Position numbers and translations under genes: made by a program. A DNA stretch of 64,000 nucleotides, from NCBI RefSeq assembly GCF_900129905.1, contig NZ_FQXG01000002.1, positions 124,001-188,000 of the forward strand, in the 5' to 3' direction. This DNA is from Ferrimonas marina (lineage in GTDB: Bacteria; Pseudomonadota; Gammaproteobacteria; Enterobacterales; Shewanellaceae). The notes beneath the pieces were generated by a model. It was given only the letters and a program-made list of their open reading frames with translations. It ran no database searches and was not told the origin of the DNA. Below are positions 13,673 to 51,370 of the stretch, piece after piece; position 1 is the first letter of the stretch; every line of letters begins with the position of its first letter.

Positions 13673-14269
13673 ATGAACCTGTTCAACCCTGCACCACGTT
13701 CGCTCTGGATTCTTCCCGTACTGGCCATCGGGCTCTTCACTTCCAGCGTTATGGCCAATGAGGGAGTCACAAGCGGGGAGGTTGAGAGTTCAGCGCAGGC
13801 GCAGGCGCAGGCCCAGCCCCAGACCACGTCCCAAATCCCTGCGTTGGACACGTTAAGCCCCAACTACGATGCCAAGGCTCGCGCCGAGTTCAGCCACAAT
13901 GACGTGGCGGCCTTCGTCTACCAGTGGTTTGCCGGCTTCGACCACCAACGTGAAGCGCGCTTCTTCTTAGAGCGCATCGCAGAACCGGTCGCTCTTCACT
14001 ACCCCGACGCGCCACTGCGCTCCGTGGACGACTTCCTCGGCTGGTACCAGGGCGTCATCGACAACATCGCCTGGAATGCTCACGAGCTGAGCGAACTTTC
14101 AATTCAAGGCAATCAACAACAGGGTTGGCAGGTCAGCTACCTGGTGCGCTGGCAGGCGAGGGATTACAGCGGACAAAACCTGGAGATGGACGTAGCCCAG
14201 CAGCTGGTGATTGTGCGAGAAGGGGAAGCACTGAAAATCGCGCAACTGAGGGCGAAGCTTCATGGGTAA
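13673..14269 (+). CDS. Secreted NTF2-like hypothetical protein
   Basis: This 198-residue protein has a signal peptide (LWILPVLAIGLFTSSVMA) with cleavage expected after residue 27 or so. A low-complexity Ala/Gln segment (AQAQAQAQPQ) follows, encoded by an imperfect CAGGCG hexamer repeat at about 13796-13820. The globular part (about residues 70-198) looks like an NTF2/SnoaL-like domain, with HNDVAAFVYQWFAGFDHQRE near its start and a closing beta strand VIVREGEALKIAQLRA. A function in binding or catalysis cannot be told from sequence. It may be linked to the SnoaL-like gene upstream, with the heptamer array between them. Confidence 0.7.
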   Translation: MNLFNPAPRSLWILPVLAIGLFTSSVMANEGVTSGEVESSAQAQAQAQPQTTSQIPALDTLSPNYDAKARAEFSHNDVAAFVYQWFAGFDHQREARFFLERIAEPVALHYPDAPLRSVDDFLGWYQGVIDNIAWNAHELSELSIQGNQQQGWQVSYLVRWQARDYSGQNLEMDVAQQLVIVREGEALKIAQLRAKLHG

Positions 14270-14321
14270 CTAATTTAAAAGGACCGAGTTTGGCTAGGTC
14301 CCGCCCACACTGAATAGATTT

Positions 14322-14894
14322 TTATAGCCTGTCATAGTTCTTTGCCACGGTCTCATTAATCTCGTCGGCAAGTACCTGAGCCTCTCGCATGGTTTCTTGA
14401 ACAAGTTCCCAGTTTCTCCAGTGCTGCTCCCATTTATCCTTCCCGACCACGAACTCGAAATCTACTTTGGTAGGGGCTTCAGCACTTTCATAGCGCTCAA
14501 GACTTTCCATTCTTTGCTTGATATCTTGCACACCTTTAGTTTTGGGCGACAACGCAGCATCACTCAACATCCAGGCACGCCAATCCTTATTCCCTTTCGA
14601 CTGATTACATTTCCCACACGCTGGAACTAAATTTTTTATTTCAGATACATACCCTGTGGGCCTCTTGTTCATTACTAGTGGGCGAAGATGATCCCATTCG
14701 GTTGCTTCGGAACCACAATATGAACACTGAAACGAATTTAGGTCCATGCCAAGCATATGAAGTGCATGCTTCACTTCATCTTCTGTAGGCTCAATCACTG
14801 GAATAATTGAGTTAATGAATGAATTCGTGATACTTGACGACCTGCCCGTTATTTTCATCGGCCTTGGCATTTTAAAAAGCGACAAATAGATCAT
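14322..14894 (-). CDS. HNH endonuclease
   Basis: This 190-residue protein contains a zinc-ribbon HNH nuclease core: CSYC at about residues 58-61, the catalytic segment EWDHLRP (His at about residue 69), then NLVPACGKCNQSKGNKDW, which supplies the Asn and the second Cys pair. HNH enzymes cut DNA and occur in restriction systems, homing elements and phage-defence systems. The start at 14894 has an AAGG five bases upstream; an internal ATG at 14870 is the alternative. The gene is AT-rich compared with the chromosome. It is the last of three genes on the minus strand, 37 bases after the membrane-protein gene, so a joint function is likely. Confidence 0.88.
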   Translation of the reverse strand: MIYLSLFKMPRPMKITGRSSSITNSFINSIIPVIEPTEDEVKHALHMLGMDLNSFQCSYCGSEATEWDHLRPLVMNKRPTGYVSEIKNLVPACGKCNQSKGNKDWRAWMLSDAALSPKTKGVQDIKQRMESLERYESAEAPTKVDFEFVVGKDKWEQHWRNWELVQETMREAQVLADEINETVAKNYDRL

Positions 14895-14931
14895 AACAAC
14901 CTTGATTTAGATCTGTTTCAACCCATAGAAA

Positions 14932-15396
14932 TCATTTAACTTTTAGCAGCATACTTTTAATGGATATAATGGCCATATAGAAACTGCATGCATTGATTAA
15001 AATAACCAACGTTGATATAAGAAACAGCCAGGCGAGCTTAAATTGTTCCAACCCATCAATTAGCCATACGTAGATGCAAACAATGGAAAAAACAACTGCA
15101 ATTAAGATCCCGATATTAAAGTGACACTTTAGCTTCCAGTAATCTGGCCATTCATGAAGAAACTTATCAAGCTTTTCATTCGGGAAAATAACAACCTTTC
15201 CTTCTTTAAAGGTCCACCCGACAATGCCAAGAGGTAACATCAATAGCCATTTGCGTGCATCCTCATTAATGCTCAAAGACTCGAAAGCCTCTTTCAATTC
15301 TGGCTCAAAAGAAAAATACAAAAAAACACCACTCAAAAAGACAAGCATCTCAAAACTTATAAAAATGATTCGGAGATAGTAAATTGACTTCATCAA
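14932..15396 (-). CDS. Membrane protein of the HNH operon, unknown family
   Basis: This 154-residue protein has an N-terminal hydrophobic helix (about residues 8-28). A soluble segment with charged helices covers about residues 30-85. Two closely spaced C-terminal helices follow (about residues 92-115, IGILIAVVFSIVCIYVWLI, and 121-145, LAWLFLISTLVILINACSF). The start codon overlaps the stop of the upstream gene by four bases (ATGA), so translation is coupled. I do not recognise the family. Its place between an unknown soluble protein and a nuclease is the main clue. A membrane effector or anchor is possible, but that is inference. Confidence 0.75.
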   Translation of the reverse strand: MMKSIYYLRIIFISFEMLVFLSGVFLYFSFEPELKEAFESLSINEDARKWLLMLPLGIVGWTFKEGKVVIFPNEKLDKFLHEWPDYWKLKCHFNIGILIAVVFSIVCIYVWLIDGLEQFKLAWLFLISTLVILINACSFYMAIISIKSMLLKVK

Positions 15397-16274
15397 TGCT
15401 TCATATCTCTTTCTTTTGTAACTCGACTAAAATGTGTATTAGAAACCTTAGCTAGGTCATAAGGAGCTGGTTCCTTTGGAAATAGGAAGCTTTTTTGTGT
15501 ATCGCTAGTTTTAACCACAACCTCCTCTCCACCTTCTAGTCCAACAACCTTACCTCTGCCATAACCATCTGCTGCCATTAGTATTGCAGCATCGCCAATA
15601 TCCGGGATTTTTTCAGGCTCAAACTCAGAATCTTCTAGGATTCTGTCCATCAATTCAACAATATTAGACTTTAAACCATCAGTCTTAGATGTTTGCTCCT
15701 TTACTGTAATCTCTGAAGCATTTCTCTCAGAAATATAAGTATTTAGACTAGACCAAAGCCTTCCAAATAAAGGGTTAGGCGGGAATACAGTCGCTGAGAA
15801 TTCAGTATAATGGCTTAACTTTTTCAACCTGGATGTGAATTTTCTATAGTCAGATACTGGATCTATATCGCAGGAAATAAAGAAATTATCATATGCCTTC
15901 TCGATAATTGACTTGAAGCGCCTAGGGAAAACTTCCTCTTGAATGCCATTCCAAACATGTAAGTAAGCTATTCCAGAGCACTCAGGAAGGTATACGAACG
16001 GTGAACTTGCTTCCACGAGATTTGGTACGTCAGTATTTACTTGATTTCGTTTTCCTTCATCAATTACGGTAGCATGACCGTTTTTCGCATATTTAGACAG
16101 CTTACCGAACACAAATGGCAATTCAGAATCTCTATTGTCTACAATATCAGTAATTGTCCAGTCGAACTTTCCGACTGTAACAATTGGAGGGTTAGAAATT
16201 GCATCCATAATTTGCTCTTGACTTAAGTTTATTTTTACAACTCGCCCTAGGAAATATCGGCCTCTTTTCATCAC
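15393..16274 (-). CDS. Unknown AT-rich-operon protein, first gene of HNH operon
   Basis: This 293-residue soluble protein has no signal peptide or membrane segment. Recognisable stretches include LPFVFGKLSKYAKNG, a serine/proline-rich strand pair SSPFVYLPECSGIAYLHVW, PRRFKSIIEKAYDNFF, ATVFPPNPLFGRLWSSL, and a C-terminal beta-rich end with AADGYGRGKVVGLEGGEEV. The overall layout reminds me of DUF4747-like proteins, but this is from memory and not verified. It starts the three-gene AT-rich operon and overlaps the membrane-protein gene by four bases. No function is assigned. Its composition differs sharply from the GC-rich genes on either side. Confidence 0.7.
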   Translation of the reverse strand: MMKRGRYFLGRVVKINLSQEQIMDAISNPPIVTVGKFDWTITDIVDNRDSELPFVFGKLSKYAKNGHATVIDEGKRNQVNTDVPNLVEASSPFVYLPECSGIAYLHVWNGIQEEVFPRRFKSIIEKAYDNFFISCDIDPVSDYRKFTSRLKKLSHYTEFSATVFPPNPLFGRLWSSLNTYISERNASEITVKEQTSKTDGLKSNIVELMDRILEDSEFEPEKIPDIGDAAILMAADGYGRGKVVGLEGGEEVVVKTSDTQKSFLFPKEPAPYDLAKVSNTHFSRVTKERDMKH

Positions 16275-43014: not shown

Positions 43015-43923
43015 ATGGAATCCGAACTTCGGCTGGCGCTGAGTCAGCTGGAACAAGTGTTACTGGACAAGCCTAAGGCGGTGCGGCTGTCGATGGCGTG
43101 CCTGTTGGCCGGGGGCCACCTGCTTATCGAGGACCTGCCCGGGATGGGCAAGACCACCCTTAGCACCGCCCTGGCCAGCACCCTGGGGCTGTCCTATCGA
43201 CGGGTCCAGTTTACCGCGGACATGTTGCCAGCGGATCTGTTGGGGGTGAACATCTTCAACCAGGCCACCGCGCAGTTCGAGTTTCACCAGGGGCCGCTGT
43301 TCTGCCAGGTGCTGCTGGCGGATGAGATCAACCGGGCCAGCCCGAAAACTCAGAGTGCCCTGCTAGAAGCGATGGCAGAGAAGCAGATCAGCCTCGATGG
43401 CACCACCCACCCGCTGCCCGCCCCCTTTTTCGTTATCGCCACCCAGAATCCCACTGAGCAAAGTGGCACCTTCCCCCTGCCCGAATCCCAGGTCGACCGC
43501 TTCATGATGCGCCTGAGCCTGGGCTACCCCGGTGAAGCGGCAGAGCGCCGCCTGCTCAAAGGGGACCACCGTGCCGATGACCCGGCGGGACTCAGCCCGG
43601 TACTGACCCCGGAGCGTCTGCATCAGCTGGGCCAGGCGGTGTCCGCTATACGGGTCAGCGATGCGGTGCTGGACTACCTGCTGGCGCTGGTGAACTACTC
43701 CAGGCAGTGCGAGCGGGCGCTGCACCCGCTCTCGCCCCGGGCCAGCCAGGCCCTGTTGGCCGCTGCCAAGGCCTGGGCCCTGCTGGCGGGCCGGGCCTTC
43801 CTGGTACCGGAGGACATCATGGCGGTCTTTGCGCCGGTGACCCAACACCGCTTATGCCCGCAAAGCGCCGATCAGGGCCAGCTGCACGCCGAACATATCC
43901 TCAGTCAGGTTGCCCCGGCATGA
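43015..43923 (+). CDS. MoxR-family AAA+ ATPase
   Basis: This 302-residue protein has the MoxR motifs: Walker A LLIEDLPGMGKTTLSTAL, Walker B VLLADEINRASPKTQSALLEAM, sensor region FVIATQNPTEQSGTFPLPES with the arginine in QVDRFMMRLSL, and a C-terminal lid domain. MoxR ATPases act as chaperones for the assembly of enzyme complexes. In many proteobacteria they sit with a DUF58 protein and a transglutaminase-like protein. The stop codon overlaps the DUF58 start. Confidence 0.94.
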   Translation: MESELRLALSQLEQVLLDKPKAVRLSMACLLAGGHLLIEDLPGMGKTTLSTALASTLGLSYRRVQFTADMLPADLLGVNIFNQATAQFEFHQGPLFCQVLLADEINRASPKTQSALLEAMAEKQISLDGTTHPLPAPFFVIATQNPTEQSGTFPLPESQVDRFMMRLSLGYPGEAAERRLLKGDHRADDPAGLSPVLTPERLHQLGQAVSAIRVSDAVLDYLLALVNYSRQCERALHPLSPRASQALLAAAKAWALLAGRAFLVPEDIMAVFAPVTQHRLCPQSADQGQLHAEHILSQVAPA

Positions 43924-44852
43924 AGCCAGGCACGCTGGGCCAACGGTGGTGGCTTGGCTGGCTGCGGCGACGCTGCCCGGCGCAGTCAAGTCAAGGGCTG
44001 TCACATCGCAGCGTGTTTGTGCTGCCCACCGGCAATGGCGTCTATTTCCTGGCGATGTGCCTGGTGCTGTTCCTGCTAGGCACCAACTACCAGAACAACC
44101 TGGTGCTGGTCCTCTCCTTTTTGCTGTTCAGCCTGTTCATCTCCGCCCTATTTATCGGCTTTCGTAACCTGGCGGGGCTGCAGATCGCCGCCACCGAGGT
44201 CAGCCCCTGCCATGCCGGTGCCCTGGCCCGGTTTGAGCTGAGCCTGAGCAGCCAGGTTAAGCGCTACGACCTGCACCTGGCCTACCCCTTGGGCCAACCG
44301 CGCCACATAGCGGTTTTGGATCAGGCCATGCTGCGCTGTGCCATGACCGTCCCTACCGCACAACGTGGCCACTTTCAGCCCGGCCGCCTCAAACTGCAAA
44401 GCCTCTATCCCCTCGGCCTGTGCCGATTCTGGTCGCAGCTGGATCTGGACCAGCATTGCTGGATCTGGCCCCAGCCCATTCCAGGGCCGGTTAAGCGGCT
44501 AAGCACTGGCAGCGGTGGCCTCGCCGCCCAGGGCGAGCTGGACGGTACTCTGGAGCGTTGGCAACCGGGCCATGGCCTGGGCCGGGTCGCCTGGAAGCAG
44601 CTGGCCCAATCAGGCCGCTGGCACGCCAAAACCCTGGCCCAGCCCAGCGATGGCGGCCAGCTCACTTTGGAACCCACATTGCCTTTGGAATCGGCCCTCA
44701 GTCACCTGTGCCATGCCCTACTAGCCCACCACCAGCGGGGGGAGTCGTTGCAATTGGTGCTGGGTCAACGCAGCTGGCCAGGCAGCGAACCGCACCAGCT
44801 GCAAGACTGCCTCAACCGACTGGCCCACTACCCTGCAGAGCCCGGGCCATGA
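43920..44852 (+). CDS. DUF58-domain membrane protein
   Basis: The start at 43920 overlaps the moxR stop codon (ATGA). The 310-residue protein has two N-terminal membrane helices at about residues 40-75 (GVYFLAMCLVLFLLG, LVLVLSFLLFSLFIS). A domain of the DUF58 family follows, ending around AWKQLAQSGRWHAKT. DUF58 proteins lie in MoxR-linked operons and are thought to be MoxR partners. The sequence lacks an obvious MIDAS-like metal site in the visible region. The tgpA gene overlaps by four bases. Confidence 0.85.
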   Translation: MKPGTLGQRWWLGWLRRRCPAQSSQGLSHRSVFVLPTGNGVYFLAMCLVLFLLGTNYQNNLVLVLSFLLFSLFISALFIGFRNLAGLQIAATEVSPCHAGALARFELSLSSQVKRYDLHLAYPLGQPRHIAVLDQAMLRCAMTVPTAQRGHFQPGRLKLQSLYPLGLCRFWSQLDLDQHCWIWPQPIPGPVKRLSTGSGGLAAQGELDGTLERWQPGHGLGRVAWKQLAQSGRWHAKTLAQPSDGGQLTLEPTLPLESALSHLCHALLAHHQRGESLQLVLGQRSWPGSEPHQLQDCLNRLAHYPAEPGP

Positions 44853-46840
44853 CCCTGACCCGCTCCGCCCAGTGGTGGCAACTGGTCAGCCAGGTAGGCC
44901 TGCTGCTGCCGCTGGCCGCCCAGGCGACGCCGGCGGTGATTGCCCTCTACCTGCTGGGCCTGCTTTGGCGCCTGGGCCTGCTGCTGGGCCGGGTCAGCAG
45001 CCCGCCTCGCTGGCTGGTGGGAACCCTGGGACTGGCTGCCACCCTGACCCTGGCCCTGCTATCGGACCAGCTGGGCGTGATGTCGGCACTGACCAACCTG
45101 CTGCTGCTGGCCTATGCCCTCAAGTCGCTGGAGTGTAAAAACGTCAGCGATCTCACCGTAGTGGTGCTGACCGGCTACTTCCTTATCGGCCTGCACCTGC
45201 TGGAGCGCTTCTCACCGATGGTGGCTGCCCACCTGTTGCTGCTGGCAGCCCTTAACACCGTACCCCTGCTGGCCTGCTACCGACCGGGTAGCGTGCTGAG
45301 CCAGCTGGGCCACACCAGTCGCCTGTTGGCACTGAGCCTGCCCCTGGCCCTGTTGCTGTTTGTGCTGGTCCCCCGCCTGCCGCCAATCTGGCACATGAAC
45401 CAGCCGGGCCTGGCACGCACCGGCTTGAGCGACTCCATGGCGCTGGGGCAGATCGCCCAACTGACCCGTTCCGATGAACTGGTGATGCGAGCGGCGTTCG
45501 AGCACGGCCTGCCGACGCCACCGCAACGCTATTGGCGCGCGCTGATCCTGGATCAGTTCGACGGTCAGCGCTGGCACGGTAGCAGCGCCCGGATCAGCGA
45601 GCCGCCCCATTGGCCCGGCCCCAGTCAGGACTATCAGCTGCTGGTGGAGGCCACAGGTCAGCCCTGGTTGGCGGCGCTGCAATACAGCCGCAGCTCCGAT
45701 CCCCAGGTCCAGCCGCTGGACCAGAACCGGCTTCGCTGGGCCCGACCGCTGACCCAGCGTCGGGTCATCACCATGGAACGGCCCCTGCTGTCACCACCGC
45801 CGGTGCCCTTGTCTGAAGCAGAGCGGCGACGCAACCTTGCCCTGCCCCACCATGGCAACCCCCGCAGTCGCGATTGGGCCTGGTCGTTGATGCGACGCTA
45901 CCCCGAACCGCGGGACCGGCTGCAGGCGATCCTGACCGAGTTTCGCCAATCCCCCTTCCACTACACCCTGAAGCCACCCGCGCTGGGCCGGGATCAGATC
46001 GACAGCTTCCTGTTTGATACCCAGGCAGGATTCTGCGGCCACTACGCCTCCGCCTTTGTCTTCGTGGCGCGCGCCGCACAGCTGCCGGCACGGATGGTCA
46101 CCGGCTACCAGGGCGGCGAGGCCAGCCCAGATGGCAAGCTGCTGTCGGTGTACCAGTACAACGCCCACGCTTGGGCGGAGGTGTGGCTCCCCGGCAGCGG
46201 CTGGACCCGATACGACCCCACGTCGGCCGTCGCCCCCGAGCGCATTGAGCAGGGCCCAACCGCCAGCCTGGGCCATGAGCCCTCCTTTCTGGCGGATGCC
46301 AACTCTCCCTGGCTTCGCTTTGGCCAGCACAGCCTGCTGTGGCCGATAAAGGGGTGGTGGAACCAGGTGGATTACCAGTGGAGTCGGTGGGTGATGGGAT
46401 TTGACCGCCAGCAGCAGCGCCAGTTTTGGCAGACCGGGTGGCAGCCGCTGCTGCAGGGGCCCCTGCTGGGCATCATGTTGGGATTGCTGATGTTGCTGCT
46501 GTGGCGCGTACGCAGCACCCTGAGCGCGCTCACCGAGCCCGCCGGCGTGGCCCGACGGCTCTATCTGCGTGGCCAGCGCCTGCTTTCTCCCGGTCAGTTA
46601 CAGGCGAGGGACAACGAGCCCCCGCTGGAGCACCTGCAGCGGCTGCAGAAGCAACAGCCAGCACTGGCGCACCTCTTCGCCCCGGTGTGCCACAGCTACC
46701 TGCGGCTGCGTTACGATCCTGACTGTCCGCCCGAGGAACTGGCACAGCTGAAACAGGCTCTGCAACGGCTACGCCAGCAGGTCAGGAGCGATCCTGCACG
46801 CTATGGGCGTCCTGCCAACGCTGACGGATCGTCGACCTAG
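44849..46840 (+). CDS. tgpA: TgpA-type transglutaminase-like membrane protein (DUF3488)
   Basis: The start at 44849 overlaps the DUF58 stop codon. The 663-residue protein has an N-terminal block of about six helices (residues 15-185). A periplasmic transglutaminase domain carries the triad Cys396 in AGFCGHYASAF, His440 in NAHAWAEVW and Asp456 in TRYDPTSAV. One helix at about residues 530-555 and a DUF4129-like tail complete it. TgpA of Pseudomonas aeruginosa is essential and has transglutaminase activity. The last 59 bases overlap the 3' end of the convergent mltF-like gene. Confidence 0.93.
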   Translation: MTLTRSAQWWQLVSQVGLLLPLAAQATPAVIALYLLGLLWRLGLLLGRVSSPPRWLVGTLGLAATLTLALLSDQLGVMSALTNLLLLAYALKSLECKNVSDLTVVVLTGYFLIGLHLLERFSPMVAAHLLLLAALNTVPLLACYRPGSVLSQLGHTSRLLALSLPLALLLFVLVPRLPPIWHMNQPGLARTGLSDSMALGQIAQLTRSDELVMRAAFEHGLPTPPQRYWRALILDQFDGQRWHGSSARISEPPHWPGPSQDYQLLVEATGQPWLAALQYSRSSDPQVQPLDQNRLRWARPLTQRRVITMERPLLSPPPVPLSEAERRRNLALPHHGNPRSRDWAWSLMRRYPEPRDRLQAILTEFRQSPFHYTLKPPALGRDQIDSFLFDTQAGFCGHYASAFVFVARAAQLPARMVTGYQGGEASPDGKLLSVYQYNAHAWAEVWLPGSGWTRYDPTSAVAPERIEQGPTASLGHEPSFLADANSPWLRFGQHSLLWPIKGWWNQVDYQWSRWVMGFDRQQQRQFWQTGWQPLLQGPLLGIMLGLLMLLLWRVRSTLSALTEPAGVARRLYLRGQRLLSPGQLQARDNEPPLEHLQRLQKQQPALAHLFAPVCHSYLRLRYDPDCPPEELAQLKQALQRLRQQVRSDPARYGRPANADGSST

Positions 46841-48299
46841 CCTCCTGCTCCGCCAACACCCGCTTGTAGGACACAAAGTAGCGATACACGTTGGCCACGT
46901 AGTTCACGGTTTCGCCGCCGATCTGCGCCGCCACCAGATCCTCCACGTTGTTAAACCAGACATTGGGATCCAATCCCCGGGCCTCGGCTTCCCGCCGCAG
47001 TCGATTGATCCGGTTCGGTCCGGCGTTGTAGGCCGCCATGGCAAAGATCATCCGGTTGAATTCTGACAGCTCGCCGTCATCAAAGTAGCTGCGCCGCAGC
47101 AGGTCCAGGTACTTGGTGCCGGCGTGGATGTTGTTCTCGGTCAGGTGGATATCGGCGATATCGATGCGTCGATCCTTGGCGGTGGACGGCATCACCTGCA
47201 TCACCCCAACCGCGCCCACCGGGCTCTTGGCGCCGGGATTGAAGCGGGACTCCTGGTAGGCAAACGCCATCAGCAGCACCCAGTCAAAGTCGTAGATCTG
47301 ACCGTACTTCTCAAACAGGGGGATCAGCTCCTGGGCACCGGCAAAGGGCTGCTGCTGCCGCGCCTCCTGCAGCCAGGCATCCCCCCGCAGGTAGCGGCCG
47401 GTCACTATGTTGTAGAGCTTACTGCCCATCGGATGGGTCTGGACGTAGCTGTCCACCAACGCCTGCATCTTGGGGCTGTCCGGTCGCATCGCCCAGGCCA
47501 CCTGGCCACCATCGCGCACCACCAGTTGCCCCTGCACCACCAGCTCCGGTAAGGCCCGCTGCCAAGGTGGCAGCTTATGATCGCCAATCACCGTGGCCGC
47601 CAGCTGGCCCAGCGCCACCATCTCCAGCAGGTCTTCATCCTCGAGGCGGGGATCGGCGAACTGCACCGTCAATTCCGGCAAACCGCGCTGAAACCGCAGT
47701 TGGTTCTGCTGCTGCAGGCTGTCATGGTAACTGCTGTCACGGCGGACGGTGATGGGACGGTCGTCCCAGTGATCCAGGCTGGACAGGGGCTGACTGTCAG
47801 GGCCGCTGACCACCAGCTCCCGCACCGGCTCAATCACCGGGATGGAGAAGCGTACCTGCTCGGACAGATCCGGGGTGATGGTAAGGTTGGCGAAGATGAC
47901 GTCGCCCAGTCCCTGCAGCAGGTAGGGCACCAGCTGGTCGGTACGCACCGGGATCACCGTCACCTTAAGCCCCTCGGCCTCGGGACCGAGGTACTCCTCT
48001 AGGTGTTGCTCAAACAGACGGGTCAGCTCAAAGATCAGGCCGCTGGGCTGACCCTGCTCGATGTAGTACCAGCCCAGGGTAAAGCTGGTCAGCACCCGGA
48101 TCTCACCACGCTGCAGCATGGCGTCCAGATCCCCCTGCCCCGGTTGCGCCAGTACCGGCCAGACGTCACTCAACTGGGCGGGACGGGTCCTTACCGGTGC
48201 CACCGCGCTGTCCGCAGGGGCAAACAGCTGCTCAAACTGAAGCCATTGGGGTGAACAGACCAACAGGCCTGCCACCAGCACAAGAATGCCAATCCGCAT
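46782..48299 (-). CDS. mltF: Lytic transglycosylase MltF-like (PBP-like domain plus SLT domain)
   Basis: The ATG at 48299 has a GGAG ribosome binding site and starts a signal-like segment IGILVLVAGLLVC; the Cys at its end is a weak lipobox. The 505-residue product has an extracellular solute-binding-like domain (about residues 60-290), with DVIFANLTITPDLSEQVRFS. A C-terminal SLT transglycosylase domain follows: catalytic Glu in MAFAYQESRFNPGAKSP, then GAVGVMQVMPSTA and AYNAGPNRINRL. MltF enzymes cleave peptidoglycan at the outer membrane. The 3' end overlaps tgpA by 59 bases on the opposite strand. Confidence 0.92.
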   Translation of the reverse strand: MRIGILVLVAGLLVCSPQWLQFEQLFAPADSAVAPVRTRPAQLSDVWPVLAQPGQGDLDAMLQRGEIRVLTSFTLGWYYIEQGQPSGLIFELTRLFEQHLEEYLGPEAEGLKVTVIPVRTDQLVPYLLQGLGDVIFANLTITPDLSEQVRFSIPVIEPVRELVVSGPDSQPLSSLDHWDDRPITVRRDSSYHDSLQQQNQLRFQRGLPELTVQFADPRLEDEDLLEMVALGQLAATVIGDHKLPPWQRALPELVVQGQLVVRDGGQVAWAMRPDSPKMQALVDSYVQTHPMGSKLYNIVTGRYLRGDAWLQEARQQQPFAGAQELIPLFEKYGQIYDFDWVLLMAFAYQESRFNPGAKSPVGAVGVMQVMPSTAKDRRIDIADIHLTENNIHAGTKYLDLLRRSYFDDGELSEFNRMIFAMAAYNAGPNRINRLRREAEARGLDPNVWFNNVEDLVAAQIGGETVNYVANVYRYFVSYKRVLAEQEARSTIRQRWQDAHSVQDRS

Positions 48300-48397
48300 C
48301 GTTGCTCCGGTTCCAGCCCCATCTCGCCCATCCCTGGTCACTGCGGGGTCAATGATTGCAAGGGGTCCCCAGAGGATTGATCACATCGAATCCGGGC

Positions 48398-49753
48398 CTA
48401 GCCGCTGCCAGCGCACATCGCCTCGTACTCCTGTTGCCAAAAGAACTGCGCCTCGCCAAAGGCGGGCTTGAGATCGTCCAGCCAATAGGCCTGGGTATCG
48501 TACCGGGCAAAGAAGGGCCGGTAGGTCCAGGCCGGGTTGCGCGCCTGCAAAAAGCGCAGCACAAACACCTTCTCCCCGGCCACCTCGCAGATCCCCTGGA
48601 TCTCGACCTTGCCCGGGCCGGCGCTCATGCTCGGCCCCCGCGCGGTGCGGGCCAGGCCGGAGACCTGACTGATGGCATCCCGGTAGATCTCATAGGCCCG
48701 ATGCAGCGGCACCTCAAAGTAGTGCTTCGGCCCGGTATCCCGTTCGATGAAGAAATAGTAGGGTACGATCCCCAATTGAACCTGGCGACGCCACATCTGG
48801 GCCCAATCCTCGGCACTGTCGTTGATGTTGGCCAGCAGCGGGCCTTGCGAGCGGATGTTGGCGCCAGTGGCGCGGATCCGCCGCACCGCCTCCTCAAAGA
48901 TCGGGGTCTCCATCTCGCGCCAGTGATTCAGATGGGCCATCACGGTGACGTGCTTGCCCGCTCGCACCAGCCGCTCGAAAAGGCGCAACAACTCATCGGC
49001 ATCCTCATCGGTGACAAAGCGGTAGGGCCAGTAGGTCAGCGCCTTGGTACCGAAACGGACACTGCGCACATGGGCCAGCGATGGGGAGTCCAACAAGGGC
49101 GTCAGGTACTGGGCCAGCTTCTCGGTGCGCATCACCATGGGGTCGCCACCGGTCATCAGCAGATCGGTGATCTCCGGATGAGACGAAAGATACCCATGCA
49201 GCGCCGCCACATCATTGGAGTTAAAGCGCAGGGAGCGGCCGACAAACTGGGCCCAACGGAAGCAAAAGGTGCAGTAGCTATGGCAATACTGTCCCTGGGA
49301 GGGGAAGAACAGCAGGGTTTCCTTGTACTTGTGCTGCATCCCATCCAGCGACTCCCCCTGCTGCTTGGGCACGTTCAGGCTCATCTGGCCGGCGGGGTGG
49401 GGATTCATCTGCGCCCGGATCTGGGCGGCCAGTTGCTGGACCTGCTCGTTGCTGGGCCCGGAACGCAGCAGCTGCGCCATCCGTTCAAAGGCCGCGGGCC
49501 GCAGCATCTTGGCTTGGGGAAAGGTCAATCGAAAGATGGGGTCCTCTGGCACCCGCTGCCAATCGATCAGGTCATTGATCACATACTCATTAACCCGAAA
49601 CGGCAGCACGCTGGCGACCACCCTCATGGCGAATCGCAGCGACTCGGGCAGCCCCTGCACCGGGGCGATCTTGTCCAGTTGACGATGTTGGTACACCTTG
49701 AAGCGGCGCTGCGGGTAGATCTGCAACGTCTCCAAATCCGTGGATTGATTCAT
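48398..49753 (-). CDS. Radical SAM KamA-family (lysine 2,3-aminomutase-like) protein
   Basis: This 451-residue protein has a radical SAM cluster motif CHSYCTFCFRW (Cys157, Cys161, Cys164) and the KamA-like segments TDLLMTGGDPMVM, TVMAHLNH and GPLLANINDSAEDW. A lysine in GPGKVEIQG is a candidate pyridoxal-phosphate anchor. Lysine 2,3-aminomutases interconvert alpha- and beta-amino acids. This member is longer than EpmB (about 340 residues) and has an N-terminal extension of about 120 residues, so it is probably a distinct subgroup rather than EpmB. The efp and epmA genes are not adjacent. The substrate is unknown. Confidence 0.87.
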   Translation of the reverse strand: MNQSTDLETLQIYPQRRFKVYQHRQLDKIAPVQGLPESLRFAMRVVASVLPFRVNEYVINDLIDWQRVPEDPIFRLTFPQAKMLRPAAFERMAQLLRSGPSNEQVQQLAAQIRAQMNPHPAGQMSLNVPKQQGESLDGMQHKYKETLLFFPSQGQYCHSYCTFCFRWAQFVGRSLRFNSNDVAALHGYLSSHPEITDLLMTGGDPMVMRTEKLAQYLTPLLDSPSLAHVRSVRFGTKALTYWPYRFVTDEDADELLRLFERLVRAGKHVTVMAHLNHWREMETPIFEEAVRRIRATGANIRSQGPLLANINDSAEDWAQMWRRQVQLGIVPYYFFIERDTGPKHYFEVPLHRAYEIYRDAISQVSGLARTARGPSMSAGPGKVEIQGICEVAGEKVFVLRFLQARNPAWTYRPFFARYDTQAYWLDDLKPAFGEAQFFWQQEYEAMCAGSG

Positions 49754-49951: not shown

Positions 49952-51370
49952 ATGCCGATGCGCCAAGACCAAACCCTGCTGTGGCACGATTACGAGACCT
50001 GGGGTGCCGAACCCAGCGTCGACCGGCCCGCTCAATTCGCCGCCATTCGTACCGATCTCGACCTCAACCCTATTGAGGATCCGGTGGAGATCTTCTGCCG
50101 CCTGCCCACCGACTACCTGCCCCAGCCTGAGGCACTGTTTGTCACCGGCATCACCCCGCAAAAGGCCAACCGGGTCGGTTTGGTGGAGGCGGAGTTCATC
50201 CGTAAGGTGCACGAGCAGATGGCCCGCCCCGGCACTTGTACCCTGGGTTACAACTCCATCCGCTTTGACGATGAGGTCACCCGCTACACCCTCTACCGCA
50301 ACTTCTTTGACCCCTACGGCCGCGAGTGGCAAAACGGCAACAGCCGCTGGGATCTGATCGATCTGGTTCGCGCTTGCTATGCCCTGCGTCCCGAGGGGAT
50401 CGAGTGGCCGGAGCGGAAGCCCGGCGTCCCCAGCTTCAAGCTGGAGCACCTGACCGCCGCCAATGGCCTCGACCATGGCAACGCCCACGATGCGGTCTCC
50501 GATGTGAAGGCCACCATTGCCCTGGCCAAGCTGATCAAGGAGAAGCAGCCCAAGCTGTACCAATGGGCCTTCTCGCTGCGGCGTAAGCAGGCGGTGGCGC
50601 AGCAGATCGACATCCTCAACCTCAAACCGCTGCTGCACGTCAGCTCCCGCTTCCCGGCGGCCCAAGGCTGTGCCGCCCTGGTGCTGCCGATGGCCTGGCA
50701 TCCGGACAACAAGAATGCGGTGGCCTGCGTCGACCTGACCCAGGACCCGACGCCGCTGCTGGAGTGGGACATCGAGACCCTGCGGGAGAAGCTCTACCTT
50801 AAAGCGGAGCAGCGCCCGGAGGGGGAGCCGCGGGTACCGGTCAAGCTGGTTCACCTCAATCGCAGCCCCTTCATTGCCCCGGCTTCCACCCTGGACGATG
50901 GCAATGCCGAGCGGCTGGGACTGGACAAGGCCCGCTGCCGCGAGCACTACCGTAAGCTGCGGGAGCAGCACAAGCTGGTGCGGGAAAAGCTGCATGGCCT
51001 GTTCCTGGACTCGGCGCCGCCGCAAAGCGACGACAAGCCGGCGGAACAGAAGCTCTATGAGGGCTTTTTCAGCGACAGCGACCGGGCCCAGATGGAGCTG
51101 GTGCGGGATACCGCGCCACAGAACCTGTCCGCGCTGGAGCCGCAGTTCAGCGACCCGCGTCTGGCGCCACTGTTCTTCCGCTACCGCGCCCGCAACTACC
51201 CGGAAACCCTGTCGGAGCAGGAACTGCAGCGCTGGCATGAGCATTGTCACCAGGCACTGAACAATCCCGAGTACCTGTACCGGCTAGAACGTCTGTTCGA
51301 GCAGCACGGCAGTGACGAGGAGAAAACCCGGCTGCTGACCGCGTTGGGCCACTACCTGCGCAGCCTCTGA
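49952..51370 (+). CDS. sbcB: Exodeoxyribonuclease I
   Basis: This 472-residue protein aligns along its length with E. coli exonuclease I. Its DEDDh motif begins with Asp13 and Glu15 in WHDYETWG. It continues with RPAQFAAIRTDLDLN, GYNSIRFDDEVTRYTLYRNFF, SRWDLIDLVRACYALRPEGI and the last acidic site in NAHDAVSDVKATIA. SH3-like and C-terminal domains follow. The enzyme degrades single-stranded DNA 3'-5' in recombination and mismatch repair. The ATG pair at 49952 and 49958 leaves the exact start within two codons. Confidence 0.95.
   Translation: MPMRQDQTLLWHDYETWGAEPSVDRPAQFAAIRTDLDLNPIEDPVEIFCRLPTDYLPQPEALFVTGITPQKANRVGLVEAEFIRKVHEQMARPGTCTLGYNSIRFDDEVTRYTLYRNFFDPYGREWQNGNSRWDLIDLVRACYALRPEGIEWPERKPGVPSFKLEHLTAANGLDHGNAHDAVSDVKATIALAKLIKEKQPKLYQWAFSLRRKQAVAQQIDILNLKPLLHVSSRFPAAQGCAALVLPMAWHPDNKNAVACVDLTQDPTPLLEWDIETLREKLYLKAEQRPEGEPRVPVKLVHLNRSPFIAPASTLDDGNAERLGLDKARCREHYRKLREQHKLVREKLHGLFLDSAPPQSDDKPAEQKLYEGFFSDSDRAQMELVRDTAPQNLSALEPQFSDPRLAPLFFRYRARNYPETLSEQELQRWHEHCHQALNNPEYLYRLERLFEQHGSDEEKTRLLTALGHYLRSL

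Follow-up and report, generated by a model that had tools for sequence, protein, structure and literature searches.

A tail-to-tail overlap of tgpA-type and mltF-like genes in Ferrimonas marina is probably an ordinary convergent gene overlap

When two convergent genes have the ends of their coding sequences in common, does the shared DNA couple their expression, or does it simply mark the place where two neighbours abut? The question is raised by a 64,000-nucleotide stretch of the Ferrimonas marina genome (contig NZ_FQXG01000002.1, positions 124,001 to 188,000; hereafter the window), in which a tgpA-type gene on the + strand (44849-46840) and an MltF-like gene on the - strand (46782-48341) face each other tail to tail. 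A reading of the sequence alone had described a 59-base overlap of the two genes and suggested that antisense pairing might couple them. Inspection of the open reading frames, with coordinates checked, bears out both frames and both stops: the genes are convergent and their final 59 bases, 46782-46840, are common to both strands, the tgpA stop being TAG at 46838-46840 (+) and that of the mltF-like gene TGA, the complement of 46782-46784 (-). Codon positions 1, 2 and 3 of tgpA lie opposite positions 1, 3 and 2 of the mltF-like gene, a phase written 123:132. We consider it very probable that this is an ordinary convergent overlap, in which abutting genes place dispensable tails on common DNA that is kept along with gene order, and for which no dedicated function is needed.

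Both partners are genuine protein genes, on opposite strands and with their 3' ends in common, which makes the pair a further example of a well-documented class, the convergent overlapping pair. The + strand protein (663 residues) contains both TgpA_N (PF11992, E 2.1e-59) and a transglutaminase core (Transglut_core, PF01841, E 1.3e-21), each over its Pfam cut-off, which is the combination by which we recognize a TgpA-type protein; a DUF4129 match of 24.9 bits barely exceeds its cut-off of 24.8. Its start is taken as the ATG at 44849, the listed open reading frame opening upstream at a TTG. The - strand protein, of 519 residues from a GTG at 48341 or 505 from an ATG at 48299, carries a solute-binding domain (SBP_bac_3) and, after it, an SLT lytic transglycosylase domain. 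The choice of start codon in either gene leaves the 3' overlap unaffected. Both names given in the sequence-only reading stand, the second with a qualification: against the MltF equivalog model of NCBIfam (NF008112) the - strand protein scores 175 bits, under the cut-off of 354, compared with 607 for a paralogue on the same contig, and hence we call it MltF-like. The contig thus encodes a canonical MltF in addition to the more distant protein at 46782-48341; the latter has relatives, some 35-50% identical to it, in records whose titles name Vibrio, Aliivibrio, Desulfobulbaceae and other groups. No Pfam domain of either protein reaches into the overlap, which occupies their tails. The DUF4129 match stops at residue 639 of TgpA and the overlap starts in codon 645, and the SLT match stops at residue 455 of the MltF-like protein, with the overlap starting in codon 501. 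Each stop would accordingly fall inside the poorly constrained C-terminal tail of the other gene, the two genes abutting with no spacer.

The overlap is a lasting feature of the genus. Among 14 Ferrimonas genomes, that of the window (G000) included, all have a tgpA match and 11 a close mltF-like gene (E 1.5e-143 or better). The two are convergent neighbours in eight, and in all eight the coding sequences overlap, by 59 bases in G000, 50 in G007, 77 in G013, 49 in G004, 46 in each of G003, G002 and G011, and 89 in G010. Conservation of the overlap, which had been named as a check on the locus, is therefore found wherever the genes adjoin. In the other six genomes they are not neighbours: the mltF-like gene is on another contig in three (G001, G006 and G009), and three have no close one. 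Neither length nor phase is fixed. The overlap is 1 mod 3 in G002, G003, G004 and G011 and 2 mod 3 in G000, G007, G010 and G013, and in an unrooted tree of the two proteins one branch, with support of 1.000, splits the same two groups. Because the phase groups are the two sides of one supported branch, the sequences indicate that the frame relation has changed at least once while the overlap persisted or re-formed. A survey of 1218 convergent overlaps in 58 species gives the phase of the window, 123:132, as the commonest, at 49%, in contrast with 18% for 123:213, the phase of four relatives (PMC2174442).

Tail lengths, too, speak against a misplaced stop. After a conserved anchor the MltF-like tail measures 24-30 residues in the eight genomes, compared with 18-42 in 31 orthologues that lie away from tgpA, and for TgpA the stretch past the anchor measures 203-209 residues in these genomes, compared with 182-209 in 28 orthologues away from the mltF-like gene. 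By the criterion for false overlaps of PMC2478687, neither protein is abnormally extended relative to orthologues defined solely by lying away from the partner gene. An economical account would be that the overlap persists because gene order persists and tails of normal length require common DNA, its length and phase drifting meanwhile.

How usual is such an overlap? As background we took the 729-kb contig that contains the window, one contig of the 4.98 Mb genome, on which a simple hexamer gene caller, applied without external check, placed 639 genes. Of 100 convergent pairs, 16 overlap, seven by at least 39 bases and four, the tgpA/mltF-like pair among them, by at least 59; at least one overlapping pair in this background (40 bases) involves an open reading frame of 52 residues that is perhaps not a gene. 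A frame entering the antisense of a gene's 3' end stays open for at least 59 bases in 84%, 37% and 57% of 519 genes, depending on phase, the last figure being that for the phase of the window. A length of 59 bases is thus ordinary, since antisense frames this long are common in this DNA. As controls we searched the 14 genomes for five other overlapping pairs of the contig, their genes named by eye. A GIY-YIG-like/acetyltransferase-like pair, which overlaps by 59 bases in the window's genome, is adjacent in four relatives and overlaps in all four (56, 38, 35 and 128 bases). An EAL-like/YbaK-like pair (39 bases) is likewise adjacent in four relatives and overlaps in three (54, 44 and 4 bases), the fourth having a gap of 6. 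In these two controls the overlap has been retained on either side of the main split in the tree. For two further control pairs no relative had both partners in the fetched stretch. The GIY-YIG-like/acetyltransferase-like pair (G000:C7:71868-72615; L133:11868-12615) lies on the same contig as the tgpA/mltF-like pair and equals it in the length of its convergent overlap.

Outside the genus the arrangement was not encountered. No tgpA match (E 1e-5) was found at any of 103 mltF-like loci, whose flanks extended at most 1.5 to 4 kb and less at contig ends, such that looser linkage could escape. These loci comprised 69 from genome contigs, 28 from a search of the order and six from three genus genomes represented twice; the order search, at E 1e-60, gave a match in 70 of 295 genomes, from which the 28 new loci were fetched. 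Conversely, tgpA was matched in 135 of 146 genomes searched across the family; 30 loci were fetched, and the 22 of them from outside the genus had no mltF-like match (E 1e-8) in their 1.5-kb flanks.

It could be argued that the overlap is regulatory. In an excludon-like arrangement, simultaneous transcription would give a duplex of 59 base pairs or more as a substrate for RNase III, or polymerases would collide head-on, and tgpA and the mltF-like gene would in this way repress or balance each other. Such a view can draw on the overlap in eight of eight neighbouring pairs, on two proteins that both concern the envelope and on the apparent lack of a terminator. The last of these had been asserted in the sequence-only reading; a consensus scan of 46300-47300 indeed found no terminator-like site, although its power is low (eight sites in 11 kb, compared with 6.6 in shuffles), and a consensus scan likewise gave no promoter signal at the junction. 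In a cell that expresses both genes, the two mRNAs would have at least 59 bases in common, for full-length messages of both genes include the overlap and neither could end before entering the other gene. As the scan found no intrinsic terminator, it is plausible that termination relies on no site between the genes and comes about, for example, through Rho or through colliding polymerases. Elsewhere, run-through and unspecific transcript ends of convergent genes have been reported (PMC3027695, PMC7154746). In the former, most transcripts of the convergent pairs studied in Rickettsia prowazekii either continued through and so produced antisense RNA or lacked a specific end point; the latter depicts convergent genes without a terminator as a type of excludon. 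The likeness to the Ferrimonas pair lies in two convergent genes between which the scan saw no terminator-like site, and whose full-length transcripts would overlap. The excludon (PMC7154746), however, involves mutual repression or RNase III processing, whereas what is observed at the tgpA/mltF-like pair is a 59-base coding overlap. To the convergent overlapping pairs of prokaryotes (PMC2478687, PMC2174442), on the other hand, it corresponds in its convergent orientation and differs only in the pair of genes.

Several observations make a regulatory role improbable. Length and phase are not constant, the genes are not neighbours in six of the 14 genomes, and two unrelated convergent pairs in the genus behave alike. 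The overlap has no notable fold, since predictions for 141-base and 59-base segments of each strand, four in all, fall within the range of shuffles at z -0.54 to -1.35, and it contains no Rfam family at gathering score; a structured RNA was rejected on these grounds. Nor is the overlap more conserved than neighbouring mltF DNA in the one sub-clade measured, the three genomes with 46-base overlaps (G002, G003 and G011), in which DNA identity is 0.50-0.60 over the last 60 bases belonging to tgpA only, 0.78-0.85 over the overlap and 0.85-0.88 over the next 60 bases, belonging to the mltF-like gene only. The simplest reading of these values is that the MltF-like tail bears the constraint and the TgpA tail follows.

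Transcripts of convergent genes can overlap with or without overlap of their coding sequences. The coding overlap therefore does little to strengthen the argument for antisense control, and coupling of tgpA and the mltF-like gene by pairing or collision is possible to the extent that it is at any such pair.

A stronger version of this proposal sees the overlap as a switch maintained by selection throughout the genus: transcripts of the wall-cleaving enzyme and of the TgpA membrane protein would limit each other by duplex formation or collision, possibly within a noncontiguous operon that would extend from tgpA past the oppositely transcribed genes to sbcB. The finding cited for such an operon is that in two relatives lacking an mltF-like gene at this position tgpA and sbcB lie on one strand about 100 bases apart. 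We regard the switch as quite unlikely. Slightly less likely still is a linkage lock, in which mutations that separate the genes would also damage a tail, holding the pair together with no coupling of expression; the genes are not neighbours in six of the 14 genomes, and TgpA tails vary freely. Finally, although one survey (PMC2478687) attributed 124 of the 178 annotated convergent overlaps longer than 60 bases to 3' extension errors, the possibility that a sequencing or frameshift error misassigned one stop, such that the true genes do not overlap, is so slight that we consider it ruled out by the agreement of eight genomes of different species and by tails no longer than those of orthologues outside this arrangement.

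It should be emphasized that several points weigh against regarding the overlap as ordinary. All eight neighbouring pairs keep an overlap, each of at least 46 bases, compared with 84 of the contig's 100 convergent pairs that have none, although the eight genomes are related; a preference for overlapping is possible. One control, a two-component-type pair that overlaps by 16 bases in the window's genome, has lost its overlap, with gaps of 19 and 13 bases in both convergent relatives, and the two controls that keep theirs do so in one set of four genomes (G002, G003, G004 and G011), fewer lineages than represent the tgpA/mltF-like pair. The constraint test comprised three genomes and 46 columns, of which 12 vary, seven at coinciding third positions of both genes, and separates the genes poorly. 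The alignment of the full-length MltF model extends to residue 505 and covers about five residues of the overlap. Both genes, moreover, concern the cell envelope, and coupling would be sensible; antisense pairing needs no sequence conservation, and lack of conservation is no argument against it.

As to the surroundings of the pair, on the + strand a MoxR-type AAA ATPase gene (43015-43923; AAA_3, E 4.7e-62), one further gene (44013-44852) and tgpA form a run, of which tgpA is the last. The frame 43707-44852, which covers the middle gene, has no Pfam match; DUF58 is a tentative label for this gene. The - strand run consists of a KamA-type radical SAM gene (48398-49753; TIGR00238, 133.9 bits, under the cut-off of 199.2), upstream, and the mltF-like gene, and the next + strand gene past these two is sbcB at 49952. 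In five of the 14 genomes sbcB is downstream of tgpA on the same strand with no mltF-like gene between them, at distances of 101 bases (G005), 88 (G008), 779 (G006), 798 (G009) and 1750 (G012). The interval in these five contains no kamA match (E 1e-10) either; it has no open reading frame of at least 80 residues in G006 and G009, and other open reading frames are present in G012. Since five genomes of the genus have a tgpA-sbcB interval devoid of the mltF-like gene, comparison of the sequences indicates that this gene was gained or lost at the interval, entering or leaving it during the history of the genus.

Elsewhere in the window, an AT-rich island at 14322-16274 (-), with a GC content of 0.42 over 14001-16000, carries an HNH endonuclease gene (PF01844) that gives weak PADLOC matches to the PtuB and PDC-M01B models, together with two further genes that have no Pfam or PADLOC match at E 0.01, one of them apparently a membrane protein by eye. 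The island looks like a small acquired cassette, perhaps with a role in defence.

If coupling of the tgpA-type and mltF-like genes were true, control of a lytic transglycosylase would be tied to the TgpA gene group by transcript architecture alone. As an ordinary convergent overlap, which we consider it very probably to be, the locus would be of little import as found, and it cautions that a conserved overlap need not be regulatory.
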